Positions 6,962 to 38,048 of a DNA stretch of 64,000 bases are shown here, piece by piece; position 1 is the stretch's first letter; every line of letters begins with the position of its first letter. The notes beneath the pieces are model-generated. The model searched no databases. It had not been told where the DNA came from and worked only from the letters and a program-made list of their open reading frames with translations. The position numbers and the translations under genes were made by a program. Source of the DNA: a virus; IMG/VR virus record IMGVR_UViG_3300044647_001247, positions 45,820-109,819 of that record, one strand, 5' to 3'.

Positions 6962-7570
6962 GTGAGTAAACCATATAAAAAACCAGATCTTAACGCTCCT
7001 AGGTATAGACCAAAGAAGTTAAATTTTACCAATGCTACTTTTTATGAGCAATTTGTAAAAGATAATCCTAAGTATTCAAGTCTCATCACTCTAGAAATGT
7101 TTAAGAATATAATTACCACGTTCAATGGTAAAATCTGGAAAACTGTGGTAGAAGACAGAGATGGTGTAGAACTTCCTGAGCAGCTTGGTTTTATTTTTAT
7201 AGGTACATGTCCTCGTAAAAAAAGTAATATAGATTTTAATAAATCAGAGAAATATGGAGTAACACTCCAGAATCAAAACTGGGAGTCTGATCAGTATATA
7301 GCTAAGATATTCTATACAAATTTTGAAACTAAGTATAGGTTTAAACATCATGAGATGTGGGGATTTTCTGGTGTTAGAGATTTCAAAAGAACAATAGGTC
7401 AAACCTATCCCAAAGAGTGGAAGAAGTATTTAATGGTTGATAACTTAGTGAGAATAAGTAGAATATTTAGAAAGCAAAGATTCAAACAACATAAACAAGA
7501 ATTAACTAAAGACCTTCTTGAAACATATGATGAATTTAATTTAGAAAATCCATGGGCAGAACTACAATAG
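6962..7570 (+). CDS. Virion assembly/head-tail region protein, function unassigned
   Basis: A protein of 202 residues. GTG 6962 is chosen as start because no ATG follows until residue 46 and the promoter-like element ends just upstream. It is basic and rich in Tyr, Lys and Phe, with KKPDLNAPRYRPKK at the N-terminus and a helical basic C-terminus. It overlaps the next gene by 19 bp, so the two are coupled. In crAss-like phages this position holds small proteins of the head-tail connector region, but I cannot assign it to a particular ring or hub protein. Confidence 0.7.
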   Translation: MSKPYKKPDLNAPRYRPKKLNFTNATFYEQFVKDNPKYSSLITLEMFKNIITTFNGKIWKTVVEDRDGVELPEQLGFIFIGTCPRKKSNIDFNKSEKYGVTLQNQNWESDQYIAKIFYTNFETKYRFKHHEMWGFSGVRDFKRTIGQTYPKEWKKYLMVDNLVRISRIFRKQRFKQHKQELTKDLLETYDEFNLENPWAELQ

Positions 7571-8226
7571 GAAACGTTATTTCAAGAATACGTACACAGG
7601 TTAAGGCTGTTAGGCAAGATGCTTTCTTGACTGATCGGGCCATTTATGCTTTTATATTAAAGCATAGTAAGTGGCTCATGAAAAGAGAAGATAGTAAAAA
7701 TAAACTTCTTGGTTATTCTGGTATTATACAAACCTTGGATTTTGTTGAATTAGAAGAAATTGATAAAGTGGAAGCTAAGTGTACAGGAGTATCTTCAGAT
7801 TGTGTTATTAAAAGAACTAAATCTGTAATGCCTGTATTTATGCAGGGATATTATGGTCCACTAATTAGAAGTGTAACTTCTTTAGATGCATCTGAAGAAC
7901 TTCAAATTACCAATCCTAGTACGTATTTGGTAATGAGTAGAAGCAAAAACTTCAAATATAATAAAACTAAATACTATTGGTATTTAAATGATTATTTATA
8001 TTTTCCTAATTTAGAATGGGATGCTATTCGTGTAGAAGGAATATTTGAAGATGATATTTCTAATTTTACTTGTGCACAAGATAGTTGTGTTCAGAAAGTT
8101 GATCAACCTTTTAATGTACCTGATTATCTTTCTGGTGAGATAGAAAATAATGTATTTAAAGATCTTGTAGGAATGCTTCAACTACCCTCAGATGTAAGTG
8201 CAGATAAGCAAAATATAAGTAGATGA
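7552..8226 (+). CDS. Putative head-tail connector (ring/adaptor) protein
   Basis: A protein of 224 residues. The N-terminus (IGNVISRIRTQVKAVRQDAF, residues 6-25, then LTDRAIYAFILKHSKWLMKRE) matches in pattern a conserved crAss-like family found directly before the next connector gene and the large tail protein. Four cysteines occur at residues 77, 84, 183 and 188. It overlaps the next gene by four bases (ATGA) and the previous by 19 bp. In solved crAss-like virions the equivalent genes build rings between portal and tail; that role is inferred from synteny. Confidence 0.65.
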   Translation: MGRTTIGNVISRIRTQVKAVRQDAFLTDRAIYAFILKHSKWLMKREDSKNKLLGYSGIIQTLDFVELEEIDKVEAKCTGVSSDCVIKRTKSVMPVFMQGYYGPLIRSVTSLDASEELQITNPSTYLVMSRSKNFKYNKTKYYWYLNDYLYFPNLEWDAIRVEGIFEDDISNFTCAQDSCVQKVDQPFNVPDYLSGEIENNVFKDLVGMLQLPSDVSADKQNISR

Positions 8227-9089
8227 AAACAGAACTTTCATATAAAACATTTGATGAACTTCTTAGTGAGGTGGCAACAGACTTTGCCACTTATAACAAT
8301 GAGGGGATGATTGAACCAGGTCAACTTATCAAGGTGGCTCAAAGAGTTAGTTATGATTTGGGTCTTAGAATACATGGTACAAAAGAAAAAGTTTTAGAGG
8401 TAACAAATAAAAAAACAAAGCTTCCTGATGATTTTTATGTTTTAAACTATGCTTATTTATGTGGTAAGTATAGTGTTACAAATGCTGTCCTATCAGGAAG
8501 ACAAACAGAAGATGTTATTTTAAATAGTTCTTATTGTTCTAAATGTGGAGAGCCCGATCCTACATGCACTTGTGAAAAAACATACACTATTGAATGTAAC
8601 ACAGGAGAGAAGATATTTGTACAGGTGGTTGAAAAAAGAAAATATGAAACCAGGGTGTATGATAGTTTTACACCTATCAGCATTGCAACATCTACTGGAA
8701 GAATAGATGCTCTAGATGATTCTAAACCAGCTGGTTATATTAAGAACAAGTTTATATACACTAATATAGAAGAGGGAAGTTTGTTTATATCTTATGAAGG
8801 TGCTCTAGAAGATGAACATGGAAACTTGTTAGTATTAGATCACCCTATGATTAATGAATATTATGAATATGCTTTTAAGCAAAGGATTCTTGAAAATCTA
8901 TACATTAATGGAGAAGATGTAATGCAAAAAATGCAACTTATAGAACAGCGTCTTAGAGCTGCTCGTAATAATGCTTTAACAATAGTGAACACTCCAAATT
9001 TTTCAGAAATGAAGAAATTATGGGAAACAAACCGTAAAGCTCAATATGGACGATATTATAATATGTTCAAATCAGGAGAAAGCTGGTAA
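8223..9089 (+). CDS. Putative head-tail connector/tail adaptor protein with Cys cluster
   Basis: A protein of 288 residues starting within the stop of the previous gene. Residues 1-70 are helical, like podovirus adaptor (gp4/gp11-like) proteins. A CSKCGEPDPTCTCE cluster near residues 106-119 looks like a small metal-binding or disulphide knuckle inserted in a beta region. The C-terminus is a long helix ending in QYGRYYNMFKSGESW. It overlaps the following gene by 44 bp. The connector role rests on gene order between the small ring-like gene and the large tail protein. Confidence 0.6.
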   Translation: MKTELSYKTFDELLSEVATDFATYNNEGMIEPGQLIKVAQRVSYDLGLRIHGTKEKVLEVTNKKTKLPDDFYVLNYAYLCGKYSVTNAVLSGRQTEDVILNSSYCSKCGEPDPTCTCEKTYTIECNTGEKIFVQVVEKRKYETRVYDSFTPISIATSTGRIDALDDSKPAGYIKNKFIYTNIEEGSLFISYEGALEDEHGNLLVLDHPMINEYYEYAFKQRILENLYINGEDVMQKMQLIEQRLRAARNNALTIVNTPNFSEMKKLWETNRKAQYGRYYNMFKSGESW

Positions 9090-9456
9090 CACCTTCAGAC
9101 GTTGCAGCACAACTATACAGTTTACAACTTATGGATGTAAGCTTGTTATTGCTGTAGTGGATAGTGTTAAAAAAGAGGTGGAGAAATTATATAAAAAATA
9201 CAAGATTGATGAGGAATTTGATGATGATGCAGAAGGGGCATTAGTAATGCCTGATATGAAAACTTATTATTTACTTCTAGGAAAGGCGTTCATCACTCAT
9301 AACACTATAGCTCATGAAGTGTTTCATGCATCTGTAAGAATTACAGAACATCGTGGAATAACTGATGAAGAAACTCAAGCTTGGATGGCAGGGCACATTA
9401 CAGAGATATTATATAAGTTTTTAGAAAAAAAGAAGTTAGAAGTAAAACATGGCTGA
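9046..9456 (+). CDS. Small zincin-like metallopeptidase (HEVFH)
   Basis: A protein of up to 136 residues from ATG 9046; the conserved-looking part starts near residue 22 (TTIQFTTYGCKLVIAVVDS). The motif AHEVFHASVRI gives an HExxH zinc site near residues 89-93, and DEETQAWMAGHITEI about 15 residues later provides acidic candidates for the third ligand. Small zincins of this shape are found beside tail genes of crAss-like phages and could process virion proteins or degrade host surface protein. The N-terminal 44 bp overlap the preceding gene, so the exact start is uncertain. Confidence 0.75.
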   Translation: MDDIIICSNQEKAGNTFRRCSTTIQFTTYGCKLVIAVVDSVKKEVEKLYKKYKIDEEFDDDAEGALVMPDMKTYYLLLGKAFITHNTIAHEVFHASVRITEHRGITDEETQAWMAGHITEILYKFLEKKKLEVKHG

Positions 9457-12400
9457 GCAACAACAAAATCCTGGAGTGATCACTAACACCTTTAGTAATG
9501 GTATGGTGAAAGACTACAATGAAACATTTGTAGGAGAAGGATTATATACTCATGCTCGCAATGTTGTAAGTAATTCACATGATGGTCAGCTTGGTGTAAA
9601 AGGTAATGAGCCAGCTAACTTAAGTTGCATCACTCTTCCTTATAGCTTAATAGGATGTATTCATCTTTCTGATGATCAATGGTCTGTATATACAACAGAT
9701 GATACTAATTCTGAGATAGGAATATTTGATGAAAGTCAATGCACTTATACAAAGGTGGTAAATGATCCATGTTTAGGATTTAAAAGATCTAACTTAATTA
9801 CAGGTGCTTCACGTAAACGTTATGATTGCGATAGACCTGTTTATTGGGTTGATGCACTGAATCCAGATAGATTTATGGATCTTAGTAATCCCCCTTTTAA
9901 ATATATAGAAACTATAGTTGATGGTTGTAAAGTAAAAACTATAACACAACCTTTACAGCTTGATTGTGAAAAGATAAGACTTGCATCTTTAATACAACAT
10001 CCTTGTTTAATCTTAAATAAAGGAAAAGTTGCAGGAACTTTACCTAATGGTTCTTATCAAGTTGCTATAGCTTACACTGAAGATGGTGTTAGATTAACCG
10101 GGTATATTGGAATATCAGAAGTACAATCATTATTTACACATGAAAATGTTAGTTCTTCTTTAGAACTATCAATTACTACTATAGATACAACATTTGACGA
10201 ATTTGAGTTAGTTGTAATTGGTCGTATTAATGGTACAACAGTAGTTAAAAAAATAGGAAACTACTCAACCTCACAAGGTAAAATATACATTGACAGGTGG
10301 GATCAAGAGTTTGAAACAGTGCCAATTAGTCAAGTGGTATTTAGAGGAGACTCTTCTGAAAAAAGTGATGCTATATACGAAGTGAATAATTATTTATTAA
10401 AAATTGGAGACTATTCAAAGTTTAAATTTAATTATCAAAAACAAGCTAATAATATAAATGTTAGTTGGACAGCTGTTCAATATCCTTCTAATTATTATTT
10501 TAAAGGTGGAAATAATACTGGTTATTTAAGAGATGAACAATATTCATTTTTTATAAGATGGGTATACAACACTGGTGAACGTTCTGAGTCCTATCATATA
10601 CCTGGAAGAGATGCTCTAGCTAGTGATAGAACTTTAGTAATGGGAGATGATGCTTTTGAAACATCTGGTATAGATTCTATTACAAGAGAAAGATGGCAGG
10701 TGTATAATACAGCCACTTTAGATAATCTAAATAGTTACACTCTTTCTGATGGAGGGCTTGTTATAGCATCAGGTAAAATGGGATTTTGGGAAAGCACTGA
10801 AAAATATCCAGATAACACTCCTGATATTTGGGGAACATTATGTGGAAAAAACATTAGACATCATAAGATGCCTGATGAAACTACAGCTCCATCCTTAAAT
10901 TTATTTTCAAATAATGGTAAATTTATTAATATTCTTGGAGTTAACTTTAGTAATATAACTCATCCTTTAGACAACCAAGGTAATCCTATACAGTCAATTG
11001 TAGGATATGAATTATTAAGAGGATCTAGAGAAGGTAATAAATCTATTATTGGAAAAGGACTGCTTAATAATATGAGGGAATATTCTATTCCTAATCAAAC
11101 AACTAAAGGGCTTTTTCAAAATTATCCATACAATGATTTAAGACCAGATCCTTATTTAACAGATTCTCCTAATTTAGATGGTCAATCTGCATTAAAAGGA
11201 CAAGCTAATGTTTCCACTTCAAAAATGAGTGGCTATAAAAAGAATATATTTTCATTTCATAGTCCTGATGTAACTTTTTCCAATCCTTTTTTAAATGCCA
11301 ATGAACTAACTATTTATCAGGAAGTGTATGGTGAATCTAATGGTAGATTTGTTAATTCTTGGAAACATCCTAAATTTAAAGTTTTAAGTAATTTTAGTTC
11401 AGTTTTCGGAGATGTAGCTTCTATAATAAGCACAGTTCAAACAGCTCTTGGAGCACTTGGAGGAGGTCTTGATTTAAAAATTGAAGCTGATAAAGATGCT
11501 CCTGTATCAACAGGACTAACTTTAAATCCAAACTATGCTGGAGATACAGTTACTGTTTTTGGTTCAGGTGCCTCACCTTTAACTATTGCACAGTTTATTG
11601 CAGCAGGTGTTGCAAATGGACTTTTAATAGGTGCGTTGATAGGAACAGGTATTCTACCAGCAATGTATAAACAACAGTATTTAAGACTTTTTATATATTT
11701 AATTCCTAAAAAACAATACTCAGCTCAATATAATTCACATGGTGTTTATGATGGAGGAGCCATACCAAAAAAAATAGGTAATAAAAGAAGAAAGATTAAA
11801 GAAGCATTATATATAGGAAGTGGAAATAGCCAGTTTAATTCTGACTATTTTGTTAATAACACAGCTAGAAGTAATGTAGTTGTTTTAGAAACTGAAAAAG
11901 ATTTGGATGATCCAACCACTACAGACAATAGTAGAGTGACATTAGGTGAAGCAAATAGTAATTTATATCAAAATATTAAAACAACTATATCAAGTCACTA
12001 TGGTGCTTTAAAAATTAGCATACCTTCTCAATATGGTCAATTAGGTGGAATAAAACAATTTCCTATAAATGGAGGTTGTATTTTTAACACTACACCTGAT
12101 AAGACTAAAAAGTTTAATACATCTTCTCCACTTTTTAACGGAGACACTTATATAAATAAATTTACTGAAAAAAACACAATGTTCTTTTTCACTGATTGGA
12201 TGATTGGTGAGCCTGATAGAACTGAATGGGATTACACTTTATATATGTATATTCCCTATCCAAGATTTTGGATAAATAATGTAGAAGAAAATGTAGCTTT
12301 TTTAGAAGCAGCTGATAATTATAGATCATTAGATAAAAGAACATCTGGTTTCTTACATGTAAGTTCTGGATATTTTTATTTATTTAATTCTGGTGTTAGA

Positions 12401-14047
12401 GAGTTTTTTGTTGAAAGTGAGGTTAATTTAGCATATAGAGATTGGGAAGAAGATCCATCTAAGCGTCATTATGATTCTGATAGATACACTGATCTTGATA
12501 GTATGTTTAGAAGTGACATTATAAAAAGTGGAAACTTTTATAAATATGATTATAACTTAAGTGTATCTAAATTATTTAATTCTCATATTACTTGGGGAAA
12601 TATATTAGGTCTTGATTATGATCCTACCACTGCAGAAAAATGTTACGTATATAGACCTAGTAGAGTTAGATATTCTCTTCCTCAATTTCAAGAATCAAAA
12701 AAAGATAACTGGAGAATATATTTAACTAACAATTATAAAGATTTTGACTCTCCTGTAACATCTATAAAATCTGTAAATAAAACAGGTGCTTTGTTTATGA
12801 TGTCAAGACAGAGTCCTATGCAGTTTATGGGTGTAGAAGAACTGAAGCTAGATGGAACGGGTGCTAAAATTACAATAGGTGATGGGGGGCTTTTTAATCA
12901 ACCTTTACAACAAATTGTAAATACCGAAAGTTCTTTTGAGTATGGTTCTTGCCAAAGTAAGTATTGTTCTATTAATACAATACACGGTGTTTTTTGGGTG
13001 AGTCAAAATCAGGGAAAGATATTTCAGTATGCTGGACAAATAAAAGAGATATCTAAAAATGGTCTTAAGTGGTGGTTTGCTAGATATTTACCTAGTGAAC
13101 TATTAGCAGCGTATCCCACCTATCCTTATTTTGATAACCCGGTAATTGGTGTAGGGGTACAAATAATGTATGACAATACTAATGAGATTGTATATATTAC
13201 TAAGAAAGACTATAAACCACTAAAAACCAATTTGTTATTTGACTCAAAAGGTTTTTATGAAATAAGTTCATCTAATGGTAAGGTGTACATTCCTTTAACT
13301 AACACTAGTTATTTTGAAGATGCTAGCTGGACTATATCATATGATCCAAACGGGAATGATGGTAAAGGTGCTTGGGTTAGTTTTCATGACTGGATACCTA
13401 GCTTTTTAATTCCTGGGAAAGCTCATTTTATGAGTGTCAATCAAAATTCTATATGGAAGCATAATGTAAGATGTGATAAGTTCTGTAATTTTTATGGTGT
13501 AGATTATCCTTTTGAAATTGAGTTTATATCATCTACGGGTCAGCAAGTTGTTTCTATGAGAAACGTAGAGTATATATTAGAAGCTTATAAAATTCACAAT
13601 GAATGCAGAGATGAGTTCCATGTATTAGATGCAAACTTTGATCAGGCTATTATATATAATTCAGAACAAGTATCTGGACTTTTAGAACTAGAACTTAAGA
13701 ATAAAACCAACCCGGTGGCAATGCTTAGTTATCCTCAGATAAGAGCACAATCTATAGGAATAAACTATTCTAAAGAAGAGCAAAAGATTAGATTTAATCA
13801 ATTTTGGGATATAACAAAAGAAAGAGGAGAGTTTGCCCCAAATACAAACATTCCAATGTTTATTACAGAGGCTAATGGATATAAGTTTAAAATCAATCCA
13901 GCTTATGTAAACTATCAAAAGTCACCATTAGAGCGTAAGAAGTTTCGTCACAATTTAAATAAAGTGTTCTTAAGAAAGTTTAAAAGTGATGATGTAAAGA
14001 TGTTATTTAAAATATCTAATCAGAAAATACAACTTAGTCAAAGGTAA
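9449..14047 (+). CDS. Large tail protein (muzzle / P22 gp10-like stabilisation protein family)
   Basis: A protein of 1532 residues, overlapping the preceding gene by eight bases. The N-terminus (SNGMVKDYNETFVGEGLYTH, residues 16-35, with HDGQLGVKGNEPAN shortly after) is the signature opening of the gp10-like tail proteins of crAss-like phages. The bulk is beta-rich with many Tyr, Asn and aromatic residues. A glycine/alanine-rich hydrophobic stretch at about residues 705-745 (TIAQFIAAGVANGLLIGALI) could cross or enter a membrane. In crAss-like virions the equivalent protein forms the distal tail. Gene order (connector genes before, cargo genes after) supports this. The next gene starts in the TAATG overlap. 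Confidence 0.75.
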   Translation: MAEQQQNPGVITNTFSNGMVKDYNETFVGEGLYTHARNVVSNSHDGQLGVKGNEPANLSCITLPYSLIGCIHLSDDQWSVYTTDDTNSEIGIFDESQCTYTKVVNDPCLGFKRSNLITGASRKRYDCDRPVYWVDALNPDRFMDLSNPPFKYIETIVDGCKVKTITQPLQLDCEKIRLASLIQHPCLILNKGKVAGTLPNGSYQVAIAYTEDGVRLTGYIGISEVQSLFTHENVSSSLELSITTIDTTFDEFELVVIGRINGTTVVKKIGNYSTSQGKIYIDRWDQEFETVPISQVVFRGDSSEKSDAIYEVNNYLLKIGDYSKFKFNYQKQANNINVSWTAVQYPSNYYFKGGNNTGYLRDEQYSFFIRWVYNTGERSESYHIPGRDALASDRTLVMGDDAFETSGIDSITRERWQVYNTATLDNLNSYTLSDGGLVIASGKMGFWESTEKYPDNTPDIWGTLCGKNIRHHKMPDETTAPSLNLFSNNGKFINILGVNFSNITHPLDNQGNPIQSIVGYELLRGSREGNKSIIGKGLLNNMREYSIPNQTTKGLFQNYPYNDLRPDPYLTDSPNLDGQSALKGQANVSTSKMSGYKKNIFSFHSPDVTFSNPFLNANELTIYQEVYGESNGRFVNSWKHPKFKVLSNFSSVFGDVASIISTVQTALGALGGGLDLKIEADKDAPVSTGLTLNPNYAGDTVTVFGSGASPLTIAQFIAAGVANGLLIGALIGTGILPAMYKQQYLRLFIYLIPKKQYSAQYNSHGVYDGGAIPKKIGNKRRKIKEALYIGSGNSQFNSDYFVNNTARSNVVVLETEKDLDDPTTTDNSRVTLGEANSNLYQNIKTTISSHYGALKISIPSQYGQLGGIKQFPINGGCIFNTTPDKTKKFNTSSPLFNGDTYINKFTEKNTMFFFTDWMIGEPDRTEWDYTLYMYIPYPRFWINNVEENVAFLEAADNYRSLDKRTSGFLHVSSGYFYLFNSGVREFFVESEVNLAYRDWEEDPSKRHYDSDRYTDLDSMFRSDIIKSGNFYKYDYNLSVSKLFNSHITWGNILGLDYDPTTAEKCYVYRPSRVRYSLPQFQESKKDNWRIYLTNNYKDFDSPVTSIKSVNKTGALFMMSRQSPMQFMGVEELKLDGTGAKITIGDGGLFNQPLQQIVNTESSFEYGSCQSKYCSINTIHGVFWVSQNQGKIFQYAGQIKEISKNGLKWWFARYLPSELLAAYPTYPYFDNPVIGVGVQIMYDNTNEIVYITKKDYKPLKTNLLFDSKGFYEISSSNGKVYIPLTNTSYFEDASWTISYDPNGNDGKGAWVSFHDWIPSFLIPGKAHFMSVNQNSIWKHNVRCDKFCNFYGVDYPFEIEFISSTGQQVVSMRNVEYILEAYKIHNECRDEFHVLDANFDQAIIYNSEQVSGLLELELKNKTNPVAMLSYPQIRAQSIGINYSKEEQKIRFNQFWDITKERGEFAPNTNIPMFITEANGYKFKINPAYVNYQKSPLERKKFRHNLNKVFLRKFKSDDVKMLFKISNQKIQLSQR

Positions 14048-16992
14048 TGAAACGGACAGATTCTATATTACAGCAGTTTTATATGTCTAGGCTTCCTAAA
14101 GCTCAGATGGGACTAGCCATATCTGATGGTACAAGGGTGGCACCAAGACCAAAAGCTTTAACTGAAGCTGAATATCAAGAAAATGAACGTGCTAGAAAAA
14201 TAACAAAAGAAGGCACTGAAAGACGAAATAAGCAAATTTTAGAAGAAAGACAAAAAGCAAGAAATACAAAAGGTACATTTAAGGAAAAGAACTTTAACAT
14301 AGGTGAGAAGTTTAGAATGTTTCCTGGTAGTGTAGGTGGTGCAGGAGAACTCTTTGATGACTATATCAATCCTTTAAAGTTTGTTGGAGACATGGCTTCA
14401 AATCTAGGTAATTCTAGAACACCCCAAGAAGCAGCTCTAAATGTAGCAATGACAGCAGGACTTGGTGCTCTTGGATTTGACCCATTAGGTAGTGGATTAA
14501 AATCTTCAGCTTTTAAAGAAGCACGTGCATCTTTTCCAAAATTTATAGATGAAGTTTCATATTCTATAAATAAACCTAAGTCTGTAGAACAAATAACTAA
14601 TAAGAATTTATATAAAGAATTAGGATCTCCTTTGAATATTTCAGAAGGATTAAATAATCAAGGTGTATTTAGTTTAAAAAGATTTCCTGACCATGTTGTA
14701 AAATTTGAGCCTGTTGAAACAGTAGGTAGAGGTATTGGTTATCCTGAATATACAAATTTTGATTTTGTAAGTGCTATGAAAAATATAAAAGATAAACCTA
14801 ACATAGCAAAGGTTAAAAATCAACTTAATGTAGAAAATAACAAGAGAGCTCTTATAATGAATAGGATTGATGATGGATACCGTCCTTTAGATCTTAATCC
14901 TATCAATTATAGAAAAATGCCAGATGACTCAGTTCGTAAAATGTACTATGACTTAAAAGATGTTATTAACAATGATTTAGGTTTTGATTTTATGGGTAAC
15001 AACTACCTATACAATCCTAAAACAAAAGATTTTTCATTATTTGATTTTTCTCCACAATTTAAAGCAGGTAATGATGGTAATTCACAATTCTGGATTAATG
15101 ATGTTTTAGGTAATACTAATAGTAATTTACTTGGTAAAGCTCAAGCTAATAAAAACTTAAAAACAGCAATTATATCTAAGCTTGTTAATGATCATAGAGT
15201 GGCTGGACAAAATTTATTTAAAGAGATTGGTACAGGATATACATTACGAAGTCATGCTGATATTTCAAAACTTCTTGATAAAGGTGATAAGTTTGCTTTT
15301 CAAAAATTTAATAATGCACTTAAAGATGTTGATATATATCAGCAAGGTGGTGTAATAAAAGATGACAGAGGACAATGGGCACATCCAGGTAAAGTAACTC
15401 GTATATCTAGTCCTAATATAACTATGAAGGGTGTACCCTATCCTGTACTAGGTGTAGGTTCTAATGGTGAAGAACAAATGATGTATCCAGGACAAGAATA
15501 TAATTTTGGTGGTGCATCTTATGTAGATGAATATCCTATGATGAAAAATGGTGGAGAAATGATTAAACGTAAAGATGGTAGTTATTCTAAAAGAGGACTC
15601 TGGGATAACATTAGAGCTAATAAAGGCTCAGGTAAAAAACCTAGTAAAGAAATGCTAGAACAAGAACGTAAAATAAAATCTAAAGAAATGAAATACGGAG
15701 GAACAAATAACTCAGGCTTTGAAGCTTTACCAGAATATGTACAAGCTAAAATATTAGCTAACATGGGATATGGTGGATATTATAATCCAATGATGGAAGA
15801 AGGTGGTGAACCTAATGGTGGCATGGCACTAGGTCAGATAATGGCTGTTTCAGATAAGATGAATAAGCTTCGTCAGTTTATATCTCCTGATAAAAACTTA
15901 GATCCATGGATTGCTTCTAAGCTTGCAGTTATGGATGATAGTGCAGATGCTATTGCTAATTATATGATGTACAATCCTGAAGCTCAGGGTGATGAAGAAG
16001 AAATCTCACAAATGAGTAGAGGAGGATATGTTGTAAGTAGAAGTAGTGCACGTAAGGGTAAGACACATAAAGTGACAGGTCCTGATGGAACTGTTAAATA
16101 CTTTGGTGATTCTAAGTTAGGACAGCATCCTGATGATCCTGAAAGAAAAAAAGCATTCTATGCTCGTCATAAAAAGAATTTAGATTCTAATCCATATTTT
16201 AGAGCCTTTGCTAAAGAAACATGGCAGCAGGGTGGACAACCTGGTTTATCATTTTGGAATGCTAGTAAAACTCCACAAGGTGCTGTTACACCTACAGGAA
16301 TGTCAAATTATTTTAATGATAATAAACAAGGTTTTGATCAAGCAAATTTTACTAAAAAGATGCAGGAGTTAAATCTTGATACATCAAGTAATGTATCATT
16401 ACAACAAGATATGATGAAAAAATATCCTGATCTTGTAAATCAAGTGATGTCTGAATATGGTGATACAAATGCAGGTAGATTTGATGATGGTATTATAGGA
16501 GCTAGAGTTATTAATGCTGCTAGTAAAATTCCTACTCAAACTAAACAAGTTCCTCCTCAAATACAACAATCAATGGCACCTCCTCCTGCTACATATAAAA
16601 ATCCAAATGCAGGATATGTAGTTAATGTAAGAGGAGATGATAATGACGGAGCTTATTATTTTCCTAGCTCTGAAAACTTTGACAAACTTAGTTCAGCAAT
16701 ACCTGGTGGTAAAGAATACAGAGATGGTTATAAAGGAGCAACAGTTAATATGACTAATGCAAACTTTATGAAACAATACGGAAACAACTACAAAGAAGCA
16801 CTAGGTCAAGCATACAAACGTAATCCACAAAATCCTGAGCAGTATATTCCAATGCAAAGAAATGGAGGATCTACTTGGTCTGGTAATAACTGGTATCAAA
16901 ATGGAGGTTTAGTAAATGGTGCAGAAATGGAAGTGACACCTGAACAAGCTGAGATGTTACGTCAACAAGGTTATGAATTTGAAATAATTTAA
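14047..16992 (+). CDS. Multidomain virion (cargo) protein with kinase-like core and Gly-Gly modules
   Basis: A protein of 981 residues. The N-terminal motif LPKAQ (residues 16-20) is shared with the next gene. Residues ~190-345 look like a protein-kinase fold: VVK219F (beta-3 Lys), ALIMNRIDDGYRPL hinge, D314-F-M-G-N-N319 with the D-x4-N spacing of a catalytic loop, then F-D333-F-S as a DFG equivalent 19 residues after D314. Further modules are separated by QQGG, KNGG, KYGG and EEGG motifs. Residues 669-727 (KTHKVTGPDGTVKYFGD, then DPERKKAFYARH) resemble the small basic DUF5754-type domain of some large DNA viruses. The C-terminus ends EVTPEQAEMLRQQGYEFEII. It follows the tail protein, where crAss-like cargo genes lie; a delivered effector or structural role is inferred. 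Confidence 0.7.
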   Translation: MKRTDSILQQFYMSRLPKAQMGLAISDGTRVAPRPKALTEAEYQENERARKITKEGTERRNKQILEERQKARNTKGTFKEKNFNIGEKFRMFPGSVGGAGELFDDYINPLKFVGDMASNLGNSRTPQEAALNVAMTAGLGALGFDPLGSGLKSSAFKEARASFPKFIDEVSYSINKPKSVEQITNKNLYKELGSPLNISEGLNNQGVFSLKRFPDHVVKFEPVETVGRGIGYPEYTNFDFVSAMKNIKDKPNIAKVKNQLNVENNKRALIMNRIDDGYRPLDLNPINYRKMPDDSVRKMYYDLKDVINNDLGFDFMGNNYLYNPKTKDFSLFDFSPQFKAGNDGNSQFWINDVLGNTNSNLLGKAQANKNLKTAIISKLVNDHRVAGQNLFKEIGTGYTLRSHADISKLLDKGDKFAFQKFNNALKDVDIYQQGGVIKDDRGQWAHPGKVTRISSPNITMKGVPYPVLGVGSNGEEQMMYPGQEYNFGGASYVDEYPMMKNGGEMIKRKDGSYSKRGLWDNIRANKGSGKKPSKEMLEQERKIKSKEMKYGGTNNSGFEALPEYVQAKILANMGYGGYYNPMMEEGGEPNGGMALGQIMAVSDKMNKLRQFISPDKNLDPWIASKLAVMDDSADAIANYMMYNPEAQGDEEEISQMSRGGYVVSRSSARKGKTHKVTGPDGTVKYFGDSKLGQHPDDPERKKAFYARHKKNLDSNPYFRAFAKETWQQGGQPGLSFWNASKTPQGAVTPTGMSNYFNDNKQGFDQANFTKKMQELNLDTSSNVSLQQDMMKKYPDLVNQVMSEYGDTNAGRFDDGIIGARVINAASKIPTQTKQVPPQIQQSMAPPPATYKNPNAGYVVNVRGDDNDGAYYFPSSENFDKLSSAIPGGKEYRDGYKGATVNMTNANFMKQYGNNYKEALGQAYKRNPQNPEQYIPMQRNGGSTWSGNNWYQNGGLVNGAEMEVTPEQAEMLRQQGYEFEII

Positions 16993-16996
16993 TATT

Positions 16997-19900
16997 ATGA
17001 AAATACGCATTACAAAAAAAGGATTGCCTAAAGCACAATGGCAAAATAGTCAAATACCAGGAGGTCAAGCTATTAATCCAAGAAAAGTAGCAGGAAAGGA
17101 AAACTTGACCTCTTGGAATGTTTTTGATAATGCACCACAGCAAGGTGTTCCTACACAATTTATTGATCCTCAATCAGTTGTAAACACAGAACGTAATGTT
17201 TGGAATTATAGTCCCTATCGTAATAGTCAAGGTGAAAGTATAACAGGTGATGAGTATTATAATCAATTTTGGACTCCTCCTAACACTCCTGCAAAAACTG
17301 CTCCTAATATAAATAAAAAATCTACTTATAAAAAAACAAATAACTTTAATGATTATTTTGCTGCAGGAGCAATGACATTAAATGCTTTAGATAATAGACA
17401 AACTGATAAGGAGTTGGAAGCTTCTTGGCGGAATGGTCTTATTAGTCCTGGTATTATTGATTATTCTCAAAACAGAGGAGATTATGAAATGAACACTGGT
17501 ATGGTAGACCCTTATAATACAGGAGCAAAAAACAAAGGACAATTTACTAATTCTTTTTATACTTCACAGTTTCAAGAAGGTGGTATATTTACACTAAATG
17601 AGGTGCAACAAGCTATATTACCTAATATGTTATCGGTAGCTTATGAAAGAAACACACCTGCATCAACATATGTTAATCCACCTAATAATTCATTAAAAAT
17701 AGATTACACAGATGCTGCTGATTTTATTAAATCACAGGAAGGATTTATACCAAAAGCAAAATGGGACTATGCTCAATATAGTGTAGGATATGGCACAAAA
17801 GCTAAAAATAAGAATGAAGTTATTTCTAAAGAAGAAGCTGAAAATAGATTAAAATTAGAACTTGCTCCTGTAATGGAAAAAATACAGAGCAAGCTTAAAG
17901 TTCCTATTAATTCAGGTCAACTTATAGCTCTTGCTTCTATAAATTATAATACAGGTTCTTTAGCAAATAAATTAATTGATAGAATTAATAAGGGTGAAAG
18001 TCCTGACATTATAGCAAATACTATTAAAAGCATGGCATTAACTGGTGTGGGTAGTAATAAAATATTACCGGGATTAGTTAAACGTAGGAATGAAGAAGCT
18101 GGCTTATTTTTACGTGGTTATGAAAATGGTGGTGAAAATACAGAAATTATGAAAATACGTATTACAAATTCTCCTGAGAAAATGGAGTATGGTGGTCAAT
18201 CTAATTATGCATTAGATCTTGGAAGAAAGAATATGTACACTGATATGCCTACTTCTCCATATGAAAGTGTAAGTAAAACAATTCAGGAAGTTCCTGAAGA
18301 GTTTGCTACAATAGAAGCAGAAAAAGGAGAAACTATTCTTACTGATGTAGATGGTGATGGTATCAGAGAACATATGAATATTGAAGGTAAATATCATGAA
18401 TATGGTGGTACTAATCTTGCAGCTAATCCTGGTGATTTTGTTTTTTCTAATCATAAACCAAAGATGGCAATCAAAGATCCAACTGTTTTAAAACTATTTG
18501 ATAAGAAGTTTAAGAAAGGTGGTTACACTCCTGCTGAAATAGCAAAGCAGTATGACTTAAATAAATACAAAGCAGTGTTAGAAAATAAAGATGCTGATAA
18601 GTATGATAAAAATACAGCAGAATTAATGTCTAATAATATTAATAAAAAGTTAGGTATGTTGTCTTTTGTACAAGAAGCTATAAAAGGTTTTCCACAAGGA
18701 ATACCTGAAGTGGCTAAGTCAACAATGGGTCAAAATAATCAAGTTGCATATGGTGGGTATATTCCTGAAATGGCTTATGGTGGTTATCTGGAACAATATC
18801 AAGATAAGGGGCAAGTTACTCCTTCTTGGCTTAAACCATGGTTAAAATCTAATACACAAAAAGGTAGAACAAGTCCCACTGGAAAAATGACAACTTATAA
18901 TCCAGATGTAGATAATATATACAAAGAGCTTGACTATTGGCAGAAAAGAGCAGGAAGAAATTTTAAGAGTGCTGATGATATGCAATCTTTTATATATTCT
19001 TCAATAGAAAAGGAAGATCCTTCTATAATAGAAGATATGTGGAAGAAGTGGGGGAACACAGCAAAAAGTAAAAACACTGATCTAGCTAATTTTGCTGATA
19101 ATACAATAGGAGCAAGAACTGCTGATTTACTAAATACTTATAGAACAAAAAGAGGGCAACCTGTTTCTATACCTAGAAATGTTAAATCTAATTTTAATCT
19201 TCCTCCTTTAAATACAAATTCTATAGATTTGCCATTAACTGTTCCTAATCCATTTACACCACCTTCAGATAAAGTTCCTGATTTTAATGAATCAAAAGGT
19301 AATACTCCTTATGGTTGGACAAATCCTGATAAAAGAAATTTAGCTAATGCTCTTATAAATAGAAGCTATATTAAAAAATATCCTAGTGTAAGGTCAGATG
19401 TTAATCCTGCTATGTCTGATTTTAGAAATATGGATTGGAGAGGAAAGGCAGCGGAGCTTCAAGGAACTTATAATAGCCAACTTAATACATTAGGTAATTT
19501 TCAGTCACCCACCTCTTTAGCTGCAAATATGTCCTTTATGGCAGGACAGCAGGGTGAAAATTTAGTTAATCGTGCTATAGAACCTACAGAACAACAAAAT
19601 GTAAATATTTATAATCAAGTGGCTGGACAGAATGCAAACATTATGAATAACGCATTAGCTAATGCTGCACAAAATAAGTTCTTACGTTCTGGAGAGAGAG
19701 CAGTAGTAAATCAGAGGTATAATCAAGAAATGATTGATTTTAACAATGCATATACACAAGCACGAAATCAAGGAGAGAATAATGCTGCTGGTATATATAA
19801 TACTAATGTAACAGAAAGTCCTTATTATTATATAGATCCTGCTACACAAAGAATGAAGTTTAATTCTGATAATGCACGTGCTGCTTTTGAAGCAGCTAGA

Positions 19901-20134
19901 AGAAGTGCTGGCCCGTCTGATAATGATGTAGTAGCTAAGTATCTTCAAATACGTAGTTCTTTAACAGGTGTTCCTGATGATGAAAAGGATGATGTAACAA
20001 GAGCTATAATGGGTCTTGATAAATCAGCTAGAGGTAGAATGTCTCAGACAACATTTCCTTTTGATCAAATACGAAATAGAACTACAGTACAACAACCTGT
20101 TACAGGTAATTATTCACAAAATCCTAACGGATAA
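16997..20134 (+). CDS. Virion protein with internal GH24-type lysozyme domain (probable fusion)
   Basis: A protein of 1045 residues. It begins MKIRITKKGLPKAQ. Residues ~235-375 are a phage-lysozyme domain: E248 (SQEGF), D257, YS262VGYGT, ALASINYNTGSL and ILPGLVKRRNEEAGLF, matching the GH24 order Glu-(8)-Asp-Thr/Ser, for local peptidoglycan cleavage during entry. At residue 385 the sequence restarts MKIRIT, then a domain typical of crAss-like virion proteins (EAEKGETILTDVDGDG, YGGTNLAANPGDFVFSNHKP, TPAEIAKQYDLNKYK, FPQGIPEVAKS). The C-terminal third is Asn/Gln-rich and helical (residues 810-930). Gly-Gly motifs separate the parts. The internal restart suggests a lysozyme module was joined to an older gene. 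Confidence 0.8.
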   Translation: MKIRITKKGLPKAQWQNSQIPGGQAINPRKVAGKENLTSWNVFDNAPQQGVPTQFIDPQSVVNTERNVWNYSPYRNSQGESITGDEYYNQFWTPPNTPAKTAPNINKKSTYKKTNNFNDYFAAGAMTLNALDNRQTDKELEASWRNGLISPGIIDYSQNRGDYEMNTGMVDPYNTGAKNKGQFTNSFYTSQFQEGGIFTLNEVQQAILPNMLSVAYERNTPASTYVNPPNNSLKIDYTDAADFIKSQEGFIPKAKWDYAQYSVGYGTKAKNKNEVISKEEAENRLKLELAPVMEKIQSKLKVPINSGQLIALASINYNTGSLANKLIDRINKGESPDIIANTIKSMALTGVGSNKILPGLVKRRNEEAGLFLRGYENGGENTEIMKIRITNSPEKMEYGGQSNYALDLGRKNMYTDMPTSPYESVSKTIQEVPEEFATIEAEKGETILTDVDGDGIREHMNIEGKYHEYGGTNLAANPGDFVFSNHKPKMAIKDPTVLKLFDKKFKKGGYTPAEIAKQYDLNKYKAVLENKDADKYDKNTAELMSNNINKKLGMLSFVQEAIKGFPQGIPEVAKSTMGQNNQVAYGGYIPEMAYGGYLEQYQDKGQVTPSWLKPWLKSNTQKGRTSPTGKMTTYNPDVDNIYKELDYWQKRAGRNFKSADDMQSFIYSSIEKEDPSIIEDMWKKWGNTAKSKNTDLANFADNTIGARTADLLNTYRTKRGQPVSIPRNVKSNFNLPPLNTNSIDLPLTVPNPFTPPSDKVPDFNESKGNTPYGWTNPDKRNLANALINRSYIKKYPSVRSDVNPAMSDFRNMDWRGKAAELQGTYNSQLNTLGNFQSPTSLAANMSFMAGQQGENLVNRAIEPTEQQNVNIYNQVAGQNANIMNNALANAAQNKFLRSGERAVVNQRYNQEMIDFNNAYTQARNQGENNAAGIYNTNVTESPYYYIDPATQRMKFNSDNARAAFEAARRSAGPSDNDVVAKYLQIRSSLTGVPDDEKDDVTRAIMGLDKSARGRMSQTTFPFDQIRNRTTVQQPVTGNYSQNPNG

Positions 20135-26526: not shown

Positions 26527-29500
26527 ATGAATAAGTGTAGTATAAGTATACAGATTTTTGCCAATTTTACTAAGCAACTGTTAGCTCAAGATGCTAAGTA
26601 TAAAAACTTTGCTGAAGTTGCAACGTTTATTATCAAGCGTCCTGGACAACCTGATAGTGTAAAGATGGTTGCTCTTAAAGGACTTGCTAAGATATATGAT
26701 CAGCTGGCTAAAAAAGACCAGACCTTTAGCTTTTCTGCAGATGACAGCAAAATCATTGATGTAGATTTGGAAAAAGATGATTTAGAAACACAGTTTAAAA
26801 ACATTGCTGCTAACTACCAAGTACGTCCTTCAGCTCCTCTTTCTATAGATACTATCAAGAATGATATAAAAAATCTTTCTTCTCTTCCAGTTTTGCAATT
26901 GCAGGACGCTGTTACTAAAATCGTAAAAGACATAGCTGCTCTTGCCAAAACTAATTTTCGTAAGAGTGCAGACGACATGGTTAAAATCATTGGTGAGCTT
27001 TATGATAGAGCTATTACTGAGCTAGATAAAAATACAGCAGTGAGTCCTATTATTCGGAACTCACTTACACAGCTTCTTAATACCGAAAAGAATATTGCTA
27101 CAGAAGCTGCCAGTGATTATATTCCTTTAAAGAATACAATATACGGGGATACTAAAATCATAGTCAAGAAAGACGGTGGAATATTTGAAGTTTTAAGAGA
27201 CACTACTGGAAAATATATTGACATTAATTCATCAGATAGTTCAGAAGTAATATTTGATAGATCTGTTGGAGATCAGTTATTTAATCTTAGAGTGGACAGT
27301 TCACCTTTTGTAGGTGGTAACGATGGCACTCAATATATATTTTCTCACAATGAGTTGAGAAATGGTATGACCTTACGTGATCGTACCGGGAAAGTTATAA
27401 CTAACCAATTGCTTAGTTTTGATAATCCACTTTCTGCTCTTGAAGTGGTAGCTTCCCGTACAGAAATACAACGTAACCAAGACCGCATTAGTAGAATTCG
27501 TTCAGAAATACCTACACGTACTCTTGAAACACAAGAGGTAGTCTCACAACAAAAAGCTTTGCTAGCAGGTAATCCTGTGCTTAGTGTATTTTCTCCTTTA
27601 GAAGGTGCACAAATACAGTTTCGTATTCCAGGGCAGCAAGGAGCTATGATATTATATGGTATAGATAACTATGCTATTATCTATCCTGATAATCGTACAG
27701 TGGCTGTAGACTTTTCTGAGACTCAGAAACAACTTATTTTAAAGCTTGCCCGCAAGAATACTACTAATGAAAATGGAATAAATGTAACAGAACCTATTAC
27801 AGAAGAAGACTTTTATAATCTGAAAGCCAGTTATGAAAAATTTAAAGATTTTAAGAAAGCTGTACAAGAAATCCTTGATCAAAATAAAAACCAATCTGAA
27901 ATTATTTTACCACAAGCTTTAGTTACTGCTTATATTAATCTTGCCCGTACTGGTGAAGCTATTGCTGTTGCACCCAGTGCAGATCAACAAGCTAGTCTAA
28001 CTACATTGTTAAACAAAGAAGGAGGTCCTGGACAGATTAGTTTTAATGTAGTAGAAGCTTTAGATGATAATTCTTATTCTGAACCACGTCGTGTTACTAA
28101 ACCTATTATAGTAGCTAAACAAGGTGGTGTTTGGACATTTATATCAGACCTTAAGGGTAATGAGATGGTTGCTGTTGATCGTGATGATAGAAAAGAATAT
28201 ATGTCTTTTTCTGATTATATGCAAAATGAACTTAAAATATCTCCAGATATTAACATACAAAAGTTTCCAAGTTCTTTTGCATGGCTTTATCAGAAACCTA
28301 ATGGTAAATTACAACCTATTGCTCTTAAGTATATACCAGTAGAAAATAGTGCAGATATTGCACGACTTGCTATGGGGTTTGGTCAGTTACTAAAAAAAAT
28401 GAGTGATCCTCAAACAGAAGGACCAAAAGAACTCAGAAACTTTAACTTGAACGTCTTTGGTTTTTCTCCCTATAATCCAACAGGTGCTACAAGTTTTGCA
28501 GGTGACTTTGACGTATTTAAAGATCCAAGTGGTGAACGCAGTGTGTCTATTCAGATTCGTCCTATGACTATGAACTGGAGCCAAGTACCTCGGGATGTAA
28601 GAAAGGCTTTAACTGTATATATAGATGTTCCTGTTATGACTGCTTTTTTAAAAGTGGTACGTATAGCTGCAGAAATACCTGCATTTAAATCACAGAAAAA
28701 TGACCTTAATACAGCGGCTGGTAAAAATGCTTTGGTAAAATTTATAGATGAAGATCCCCAGCTTCGTAAACAACTTATGAGTGCTTATGAAGATATTAAT
28801 ACACACCTCTATCGTAAGTTTCAGTCTATAGGTGAAAAACTTACTAAGACTTCTTATAATGGCGAGTTTGATATACCTAAGATTTACACACTGATGGAAA
28901 ATGAAAAAAGTGATCTTAGTGGAAGATGGAAGCTTAAAATAAAAGATCGTCAAACTGGTAATGATGTAACTAACTTTAACAACTATCGTAGCATGACTAC
29001 GGAAGAAGTGTTTACATTTGGTGGTATTCAGGCTGTGTTTGCAGGACCAAACGTTTCTGCTATACAGACAGTTAATAAACCAGCTCCAGTAACACAAAAT
29101 CCTGCTAACAACACTACAGCAGATAATGTTCCTGGTACTGCTGGAACTATAGAGATAGATCTTAATTTTGAAGATGGTGCTTTTGAACTTGCTATGGATA
29201 CTGAACTTTTCCAAGCATATCAAGCAGGGCAGTTTCAGCAAGAACTAGATTGGATTAAAGCAAATCTACCAAAAGAAATCAGCGTAGAAGACCTAGCTGA
29301 TATTATGGATAATCTTAAAGCTGAAGGTCGTGTACTTGGTTATTTTAGAGACCGAGTTATCTATCTCAATGAACAGCTTTCTGGTAGAGGATCAGGATAT
29401 CATGAAGCATTCCATGGTGTGTTTAGAAAACTAATGGATGCTTCTACTCGTGATCGTTACTTAAAACTTACCAAAGAAAAAATAGGAGCTGTTTCTAAAG

Positions 29501-32500
29501 AGCAGATTCAAGAATTCCGTCAAAGACGTTCTCTTTATCATTTATCTAATGCTCAGGTTATAGATCGTATAGCAGAAGAATATTTAGCTGATAAATTTAA
29601 AGCATATAAGTTAGAAGGTCGTGGTGCTCAGGAAGGTTGGCTAAATAAGCTAATGAACTTAATAGATAGTATCATTCGTTTTTTTAACAAAAATTATAAA
29701 GAAATAGATAACCTGTTTCAAAGAATTGATACAGGATTCTATAAGAATGCAAAGATTGTAGGTGAGTTTAAGGAAGGTGCGTTTGAAATGCTATCTACCC
29801 GTAGTACACTAGTAACAGGTCCTACAGGAAAAGCTATACAAAGAAAGAACTTTCTTAATAAAATTGACCAAGCACAGTTGATAAATAGACTAGCTGAACT
29901 AACTTCTTTTTCAGTAGGTAAAAACTTTGAAGAAAAGTTTGCAGGAGCTCGTAAAGAGCTAATAGCAGAAATGAACATAGATAACCTAATTGCTCAAAAT
30001 CCTTCTGAAGAATTAGCTATTCGTACACGTTATGAATCCATTCTTCAGGATAAACTTTATACTCTAGGTGTACCTGTATCTATGATTAATGAAACAGGTA
30101 ATGTTACTATGGATCAGAACTTAAATTTAATACAAAAGGATCCTGTACAGCTAGCAGCTTATAATAAGCAGCAAGCTGATACATTAAAGTCTTTAAAGCA
30201 ACAAGTTAGTCAAAAGATAAACAACATTTCTATATCAAACATATACTTTGATCCCGACGCTATGCTGAATGAAGAAGAGTTTGATGAAGATGATCTAGGT
30301 GATGAAACAAATTATGAAGATAGCTTTGTAAACATAAATACTTTGGACGGCTTGAGCCGTCAGTTTCGTTCATTTTTTGGTCTAATTTCTTATATTCATA
30401 CAGACGATCTGGGAGTACAAACCACCCGTATGGTAGATGGAGCTACAGTTTTTGATACCATGATGAAAATCTTAGCTGACACACCTGTAGAAAAGATGAT
30501 GTCTCGTATGGAAGAAACTCTAGAAAAAATGCTAGAGTCTGATAACATGGTAGCATATGATCGTCTTAATGCAGTGTGGGATAAGATGAAAAAATACTTT
30601 GGTCTTAATGAAAATAATCAACCTACACGTAATACAAATCTTTATAATCAGTTTATTGATGTATTTAATGTAGCAGATCTATCTACAGATGTATACTATG
30701 TAAACACTCGTAATGATTCTTCTAGTCTTAGAGTTATTGATGCCACTATACAAAATGATATTAATCAGTATTATGAAAAGTTAAGAAGAAAGTATGAGAA
30801 TGGTTTTATGAAAAAGTCTACCAAAGATCGTGAAGATATTCTTCGTGTATCCAAAGCTATTCTTAAAACTGAAGTGACTGTACCAACAGACCTTGGTAGT
30901 CAAAGTTATAATTCAATAAAAGCTAAAGCAAAAAAAGTACACAAGGCTCTTAATGATATAGGTATTATATTACCTCTGCATACCGTTATTTACTCTTTAA
31001 TTGCAATTGATGTAAAAGAAAATAAAGTAGAGTTAAAACCTAAAAGTAAATCTTTAAAGCAATACATATTAGATCAAGAACTTATTAATACAGGAGCTTA
31101 TCTTGATAAAGATTTTTTTGATAAAATTGTTAGATATGTAGATGAAAATACAAATATTTTTGATAAGTCTGTAGATAAAGATGTTGCTACAGAAGGAACT
31201 CTTGGTCTTACTGACTTAGAAAAGAATCAGCTTCGTTTAAAGAAAAGAGGACTGGGTTTAATTAATTCTGTACTAAAAAAGACAGGACGTTATGTTGTTA
31301 AGTATGATCTTGATACTGTAGTGTCTGTATTTCGTAATGCAGAAGGTAAAAATGTTTATCGTTATGTACGTAAAAGTCCACCATTATTAATAGCACAGTC
31401 ATTGAGAGAAAAAGGATGGCAAGATACTTATTCTGATTTTTCAACTGTTGCTAAGTTCTTACAAGACAACCCACTTACAGCTAATAAGCCTGAAAATTTG
31501 CTCTACTTACAAAACATTGAGCTTAGAAGTTTTGGTGGAGCTCGTCAAACACTTAAAGGTGTAGAACGAGATGGTGTTACAGCTAAGACTATTGATACAG
31601 CAGGTTACTATCTAAGCTATGTCCTGATGTCTATGAACCGTAAAACAACTATAAATAATAACGCTGCTATTACAACTTTTTCTAGGATGCTTACTCAAAA
31701 TGAAGCTTCTAATACTATATATATGATACCAAATCTATATAAAAGAATGGTAACAAATAATGGATATATAGTTGAAAATAAAGAAAATATAGTGGTTAAA
31801 GGTTTTGTAGACGTTATCAAACAAGAATACCAGCGTATACAAAGAGAATGGACTACACGTAAAGATCAGAATAAAGAAAAATTTAATAATTATAATGCTG
31901 TTTTAAATCCTGATGGATCTGTAAACACAGAAGATCCATCTTTGCGTGCGTACAACTTTAATATGCTTGCTGATTTTTTTGAGTTTAATAATCTTGCATC
32001 TAAAACATCTAATCCACTACGTGCTGATATCCGCAATCAACTTATACAAAGTGCAAAAGATGGAATAAAGTTTGATAAGCTTGATATTGGTTTACTGCAG
32101 CGTGAACTTCTTAATTATGCAGAAGAAAAGTTTACTGCTCATTTAAACATACTAAAGTCTTACAAACTAGTTGAAGAAAATGAACAGACTAGTGAACTTA
32201 TGAGCCGTCTTATTCCTGATAGTTACACCGTTGATGGTACAACTGTAAGTATTGAATCAGAGGATTCTAATCTAGAGTCTTATCTAAAAGATGTCTATTT
32301 TAACGTATTTATAAACAACTTGCAGGTGTCACAGTTTTTTGATGGTGATATAGCAATGGGTGTTAAAAACTTTGCTGACTACTTTAAGCGTCAGAAAATG
32401 AACGTTGCTGCTGGACCTTCTATGAAGAGTGGTAATCATACTGTAGCATATGTAGATGAAATTACTGTTCTTATTAATGATAACAATCTTGAAGAAGGGC

Positions 32501-38031: not shown

Positions 38032-38048
38032 ACCTACCAAATATTAAT

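Follow-up and report, generated by a model that had tools for sequence, protein, structure and literature searches.

We analyzed a 64,000-base stretch (the window) of the 109,819-base virus record IMGVR_UViG_3300044647_001247 and found that a 981-amino-acid (aa) protein encoded there carries an exchangeable cassette, part of which shows the landmark residues of a protein kinase in their usual order. The evidence for an effector cassette is strong. We consider it reasonably probable that the protein is a swappable, virion-delivered effector with a divergent, minimal kinase-like phosphotransferase, which would be injected and would phosphorylate a host component. The kinase fold of the domain taken by itself, as predicted from its motifs, is likely; phosphotransfer and injection are predicted as well, and delivery with the genome is probably the use of the protein that is most likely, given the position of its gene and the repertoire of domains found in the same slot of relatives. 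We assigned the domain to no named kinase family, and a Pfam scan of the 981-aa protein gave no family above the cut-off. The protein, probably packaged in the virion of a crassvirus relative, appears to consist of a stub at the N-terminus and a constant frame at the C-terminus that enclose the cassette, with the following parts:

14047..16992, plus strand: open reading frame (ORF) of the 981-aa modular cargo-type protein, the carrier of the cassette
14128..15345, plus strand: exchangeable cassette, linker plus kinase-like domain, delimited by blastn breakpoints
14128..14523, plus strand: pre-effector linker, residues 28-159, recognized by its recurrence before other domains in phmmer searches
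14599..15336, plus strand: kinase-like domain, about residues 185-430, recognized from motif order
15340..15600, plus strand: C-terminal frame module (C-module, IKDDRGQWAHPG...GVPYPVLG), which is the side of the slot that stays constant, with relatives in viral contigs

The boundaries of the cassette were set by two related loci that each carry a different insert. In a blastn comparison of window positions 13001-18000 with locus L011, positions 13001-14127 were 85% identical and positions 15346-16235 were 89% identical, with no match between them, so that both flanks are retained; with locus L006, positions 14125-14523 (90.7% identical) and 15336-15554 (74%) matched, again with nothing between, so that the linker and the C-module are retained. 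These breakpoints identify 14128-15345 as the exchangeable unit, its first third, the linker, being common to one lineage and its flanks to another, and we regard its status as a cassette as nearly certain. L011 (6975-10553), the closest relative by its flanks, has a slot domain of about 300 aa that is unlike the insert of the window, and a DUF3597-like stretch further downstream (E 3.6e-5, under the family cut-off).

The linker recurs in front of other domains. By phmmer, it was found in L218/L006, L077, and L044/L045/L059, and in weaker versions in L037, L160, L167, L213, and others. An ART-PolyVal domain stands downstream of it in L045 and L059 (E 9.3e-14 and 7e-14), and weaker versions of the linker precede a PF03496 domain in L037 (E 1.5e-12) and HExxH domains in L167 and L213; the domains that follow it in L218 and L077 had no Pfam match. 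Two stretches resembling ADP-ribosyltransferases (ARTs) follow the linker in L045 (6759-9845) and L059 (7275-9845), the first (YRGLGKEGMEDAV) recognized by eye and the second being the ART-PolyVal domain found by Pfam.

On the other side of the slot, the C-module of the window had relatives in 120 viral-contig stretches and the L063 version of it in 161, of which the best 80 were retained in each case; the C-module query found no relative in the contigs of GTDB species genomes. The segments adjoining these C-modules, dereplicated at 90%, numbered 99. An HExxH motif was present in 27 of the 99, some of them mutually related, where shuffles predict 0.4. Each of the four loci in which the C-module matched twice contributed one segment, and in three of the 27, from L221, L049, and L055, the HExxH lies after the first C-module copy. 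A Pfam scan covering 91 of the 99 segments (E 0.01) found ADP-ribosyltransferases (PF03496 twice, PF18760 once) and the SLT, phage lysozyme, and histidine-phosphatase families, together with doubtful weak matches to Zn_ribbon_4, TraV, UTP15_C, and OMP_b-brl; the majority of the scanned segments had no match. When pairs of loci whose C-modules share at least 85% DNA identity were compared, 360 of 423 had no protein match in the preceding 290 residues, the pairs being drawn from 93 usable representatives whose dereplication favors mismatched pairs.

The preliminary description of this DNA had proposed an ejected effector with a protein-kinase-like core at 14611-15081, which corresponds to residues 189-345. 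The swappable cassette, the zincin-like, ART, and lytic domains that relatives carry in the slot, and the position of the gene between tail-ring and RNA polymerase (RNAP)-related genes speak for the effector part of this proposal, and we infer packaging and injection from them. The residues named for the core (K219, D314, N319, D333, and IMNRIDDG) are all at their places in the translation, in the order and spacing described. The following candidates for kinase landmarks lie within the domain:

14647..14676, plus strand: glycine-loop-like GLNNQGVFSL, residues 201-210, recognized by eye
14701..14703, plus strand: K219, candidate beta-3 lysine in PDHVVKFEPVE (VVKF), from the sequence
14746..14748, plus strand: E234, weak candidate for the alpha-C glutamate, from its position alone
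14854..14877, plus strand: hinge-like IMNRIDDG, residues 270-277, from the sequence
14986..15003, plus strand: candidate catalytic loop D314 to N319 in NDLGFDFMGNN, with N318/N319 at 15001, from the sequence
15043..15051, plus strand: D333-F-S, candidate DFG motif in DFSLFDFSPQF, from the sequence

The lysine, the catalytic aspartate, the asparagine five residues after it, and the DFx aspartate are thus all occupied in kinase order and spacing. K219 and D314 are 95 residues apart, D314 and N319 are 5 apart, and D314 and D333 are 19 apart, and the corresponding distances in protein kinase A (PKA; K72, D166, N171, D184) are 94, 5, and 18. By eye, KPNIAKV (residues 250-256) resembles HPNIVKL, and an alpha-E-like helix near residues 294-310 and the strands NYLYN and FSLF follow one another in kinase order. 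About 95 residues separate the DFS from the C-module. The domain would comprise an N-lobe with K219, a hinge at 270-277, a catalytic loop with D314 and N319, and the DFS at 333, and then end with those residues.

We then asked how far such a pattern exceeds chance. The core satisfied a longer kinase grammar and 0 of 1966 other ORFs (761,593 aa) did so, although this grammar is post hoc because it was composed with the sequence already seen. Among 20,000 shuffles of the core, the loose form of the grammar occurred in 8 and its tight form in 0; 8 of 13 real kinases passed the loose form and 3 of 13 the tight form. A profile of our own, made from 13 of 14 canonical kinase loci (L244 was excluded, its frame being without an HxD motif), also gave some indication in glocal mode: the score of the core was reached by 25 of 6508 background segments and by 5 of 2000 shuffles.

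The structure prediction and Foldseek search that the preliminary description had suggested were carried out, and they listed kinases at no significant level. The two AlphaFold models, made without homologues, had pLDDT values of 33.6 and 30.8 and were unusable as such. Both nevertheless placed a helix at 294-309/310 and strands at 320-323 and 328-331, a suggestive match to the alpha-E helix and the beta-7 and beta-8 strands expected around D314, N319, and D333. With the second model, protein kinases made up seven of the eight PDB rows at E up to 10, with OspG at the top, but none was significant (E 2.8 to 9.7), and we did not count this list as proof given that all E values were at least 2.8 and related rows are not independent. 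The list for the first model was mixed, and OspG ranked 9 of 11 in it (E 9.3).

Several results weigh against a kinase assignment. The bare pattern K-x(60-140)-D-x4-N-x(8-25)-DF[SG] was also present in 66 of 2000 sequences made by shuffling the full 981-aa protein and is weak evidence, and a stricter version of it did not match the 981-aa protein itself. No HRD-type histidine precedes D314, residues 312-314 being G-F-D; some kinase-fold families also lack it. The alpha-C glutamate is uncertain, as E234 lies 15 residues after K219 and immediately ahead of a weakly predicted helix at 241-248. The Pfam scan of the domain found no family, and the PF00069 and PF01636 profiles had no match in the phage's own record. 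PF18762 (Kinase-PolyVal), which we take to be the truncated kinase group discussed below, matched none of 32 records, including the phage's own, at E up to 10 in a search that had no known member as a positive control, and it was not found by hmmscan. Two of its features were not seen in the domain, namely the histidine-aspartate insert (no histidine precedes D314) and the glutamine in the last N-lobe strand (none in RALIMNRI, a tentative strand assignment).

Our own profile also gave unfavorable results. In a local search the core scored 0.2 bits, inside the background; of the sequences reported, this score was reached by 216 of 4607 background segments and by 48 of 1394 shuffles. Over the whole stretch from the N-lobe to the DFG, the glocal alignment gave -16.1 bits, compared with at least 153.7 for the profile's own kinases. 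When parts of the domain were aligned separately, the number of background segments scoring as high, out of 6508, was 2333 for the N-lobe, 100 for alpha-E to DFG, and 434 for the catalytic loop to DFG. Of the six top background segments, that of L070 is a ring protein by Pfam, that of L028 is weakly DNA-binding-like, and by eye the other four had no kinase landmarks beyond chance pattern fragments. The profile therefore does not discriminate at such scores. With the poor model, VIA-align placed Pol Mu and TdT chains on the helix-hairpin fragment at the top (Z up to 2.5), with no kinase in 28 rows from 134 chains, and in the viral structure library the list was mixed, one of 34 insignificant rows being named kinase. 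The domain had no sequence match among solved structures. Of the proposed kinase-like core, then, the ordered motifs stand, with weak hints beside them, and the tests against known families were negative or indecisive; together these results are suggestive and fall short of proof.

The conservation of K219, D314, N319, and D333 likewise had no independent relative to show it. Across IMG/VR, GTDB species genomes, and phage and plasmid records, the sole relative of the domain was the contig IMGVR_UViG_3300044627_002836, which is identical. The viral contigs were scanned with the domain, the whole protein, and the motifs GFDFxGNN, DFxGNN...DF[SG], and GYPEYxNFD; single-protein scans of this kind detect only close relatives or exact short motifs, so distant relatives may exist. 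The domain found no relative in the contigs of GTDB species genomes, in 31 related records, or, by tblastn at E 1, in phages. Some low-ranking matches were considered and rejected. One of four Erwinia phage records at E 9 was inspected and had no such protein, and the gene at the single plasmid tblastn match (E 0.3) is TolC-like by eye. A phmmer search of 1969 ORFs of the collected loci returned the domain's own copies, the same TolC-like gene (E 6e-4), a 111-aa ORF of L009 (E 0.013), and weaker rows, and none of these other matches had the motif set.

It is rather unlikely, although far from negligible, that the cassette encodes an effector of another fold and that the kinase-like order of its motifs, noted by eye, arose by chance. 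The silence of the kinase profiles and the frequency of the bare motif in shuffles would fit such a coincidence, as would the slot itself, whose other nameable domains are of zincin-like, ART, or lytic types, with many more that gave no match in Pfam. However, several kinase landmarks occur in order with a spacing near that of PKA, the grammar, post hoc as it is, was absent from all background ORFs, and the helix-loop-hairpin appeared in both low-pLDDT models. A kinase fold delivered in the same way may also act otherwise, as a pseudokinase or by transferring AMP or phosphorylating a small molecule, and kinase-fold proteins with such activities are known. We consider this improbable: the missing HRD histidine would agree with it, but the expected residue is present at each of the lysine, aspartate, asparagine, and DFx aspartate positions.

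Least probable, to a degree that we give it very little weight, is a part of the particle that serves its structure or ejection and has no enzymatic role. The location between the muzzle place and the RNAP genes resembles that of crAss001 gp45 and gp46 (PMC10172136), but relatives encode recognizable enzymes in the slot, and its wholesale replacement between close relatives makes a required structural part hardly likely. The kinase-like effector is the explanation that we prefer.

The surroundings of the gene, among late virion genes between crassvirus tail-ring and RNAP-related cargo genes, are as follows:

7552..9089, plus strand: tail ring proteins 2 and 1 of Crassvirales (PF25702, E 9.8e-23; PF24228, E 4.2e-13)
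9449..14047, plus strand: 1532-aa virion structural protein that occupies the muzzle gene's place and precedes the 981-aa gene (phrog_37948, E 2.7e-63)
16997..20134, plus strand: 1045-aa protein with a phage lysozyme domain, the next gene (PF00959, E 8.7e-17)
26527..44597, plus strand: large RNAP-related cargo proteins of 3834 and 2193 aa (blastp to crAss001 gp47, 6e-10, and gp50, 1e-7; and to gp49, 2e-6)

The 1045-aa protein is followed by proteins of 1000 and 1103 aa and then by the two giant RNAP-related proteins, and the order of the genes in the window is that of the Crassvirales structural block in phiCrAss001. The tblastn matches of the 1532-aa protein were structural proteins of csAssE-Sib, Cellulophaga phi17:2, and others, and blastp against crAss001 gp44 gave no match at E 0.05. 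In phiCrAss001, gp45, gp46, gp47, gp49, and gp50 were detected in virions, and gp45 and gp46, encoded between the muzzle place and the RNAP genes, are expected to help build a transmembrane channel (PMC10172136). The 981-aa gene shares this interval from the muzzle to the RNAP subunits but differs in that its product is not significantly similar to either gp45 or gp46 (best phmmer E 0.08, 0.5 bits), so its label as cargo comes from its position.

Other features of these genes were also observed. The gene after the slot encodes a lysozyme domain in the window and a different domain with a SDHNSGDALDIG motif in L004 (10233-12041) and L005 (10168-11871), which is M15-peptidase-like by eye and gave no match in the Pfam scan of L004; given these different domains, a second exchangeable slot, a lytic one, may exist there. 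The 2193-aa RNAP-related protein (38016-44597) has a PDDEXK_1 nuclease domain at residues 488-608 (E 7.4e-5). The motifs [QNKYE]GG and KAQ are repeated in the 981-aa and 1045-aa proteins (14047-20134), some of them near module borders, at residues 18 and 433 of the 981-aa protein, and may mark processing sites; the enrichment of GG in the two proteins is mild (13 versus 9.2 expected and 8 versus 5.1 expected, respectively).

OspG/NleH-type effector kinases have a small kinase fold with a reduced C-lobe and enter eukaryotic cells by type III secretion. OspG chains appeared in both Foldseek lists (E 2.8 and 9.3, neither significant and both from poor models); these effectors differ in their type III route, and the domain of the window matched no solved structure by sequence; the comparison was made by name only. 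Polymorphic toxins and polyvalent effectors are similar in combining a constant frame with exchangeable domains replaced by recombination, but the gene of the window lies among crassvirus tail and cargo genes, and its variable part is internal and flanked on both sides. Iyer et al. 2017 (PMC5512222) described phage-injected polyvalent proteins, cassette-like loci, and a truncated kinase group carried by (pro)phages of Bacteroidetes and of Verrucomicrobia-Chlamydia. Their kinases (PMC5512222), thought to be packaged and injected, also form a kinase-like domain inside a multidomain phage protein, but that of the window occupies an exchangeable slot in a phage of the crassvirus type. Because it had no PF18762 match and lacked the two features named above, we did not file it under Kinase-PolyVal.

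Other phage kinases that act on the host or on other phages are the T7 kinase, expressed early in infection, the 933W Stk, expressed in lysogeny, and the Gratiaviridae HipA-like kinase, encoded among late genes (PMC8008677), and none is described as a swappable virion cassette in the part of that paper considered here. The preliminary description knew of no kinase described at this position in crAss-like phages, and the literature searched, mostly at the level of titles, agrees, although kinases of polyvalent proteins in Bacteroidetes (pro)phages have been published (PMC5512222). No title found in searches of the crAss-like and Crassvirales literature describes this effector slot, judged by titles alone and with most subscription journals and bioRxiv preprints outside the scope. 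In the part of Yutin et al. 2021 (PMC7886860) that we consulted, the word "kinase" occurs once, for a nucleotide kinase, and no word starts with toxin, zincin, or effector.

In the proposed mechanism, the 981-aa protein would exit the particle together with the DNA or ahead of it, and its kinase-like domain would phosphorylate a host component at once, early in infection, much as T4 Alt and the T7 kinase modify the host; both are cited as modifying host proteins, Alt being injected (PMC5512222). A wider interpretation is plausible but more tentative. Many crassvirus-type phages may possess a polymorphic-toxin-like virion effector locus, swapped by homologous recombination, in which a shared linker and C-terminal frame would hold interchangeable zincin-like proteases, ADP-ribosyltransferases, lytic enzymes, and other domains; the domain of the window would then found a new minimal kinase family that lacks the HRD histidine and is injected to act on host proteins by phosphorylation as infection begins. 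If this is true, crassvirus-type phages would wield an exchangeable arsenal of proteins delivered alongside the genome, and the kinase-like domain would represent a minimal and highly divergent family of kinases that acts in early infection. The slot is easily recognized by its C-module (IKDDRGQW...GVPYPVLG), so that many candidate enzymes for host takeover or counter-defense could be listed at once, and the findings suggest that related viruses would exchange injected weapons through it.

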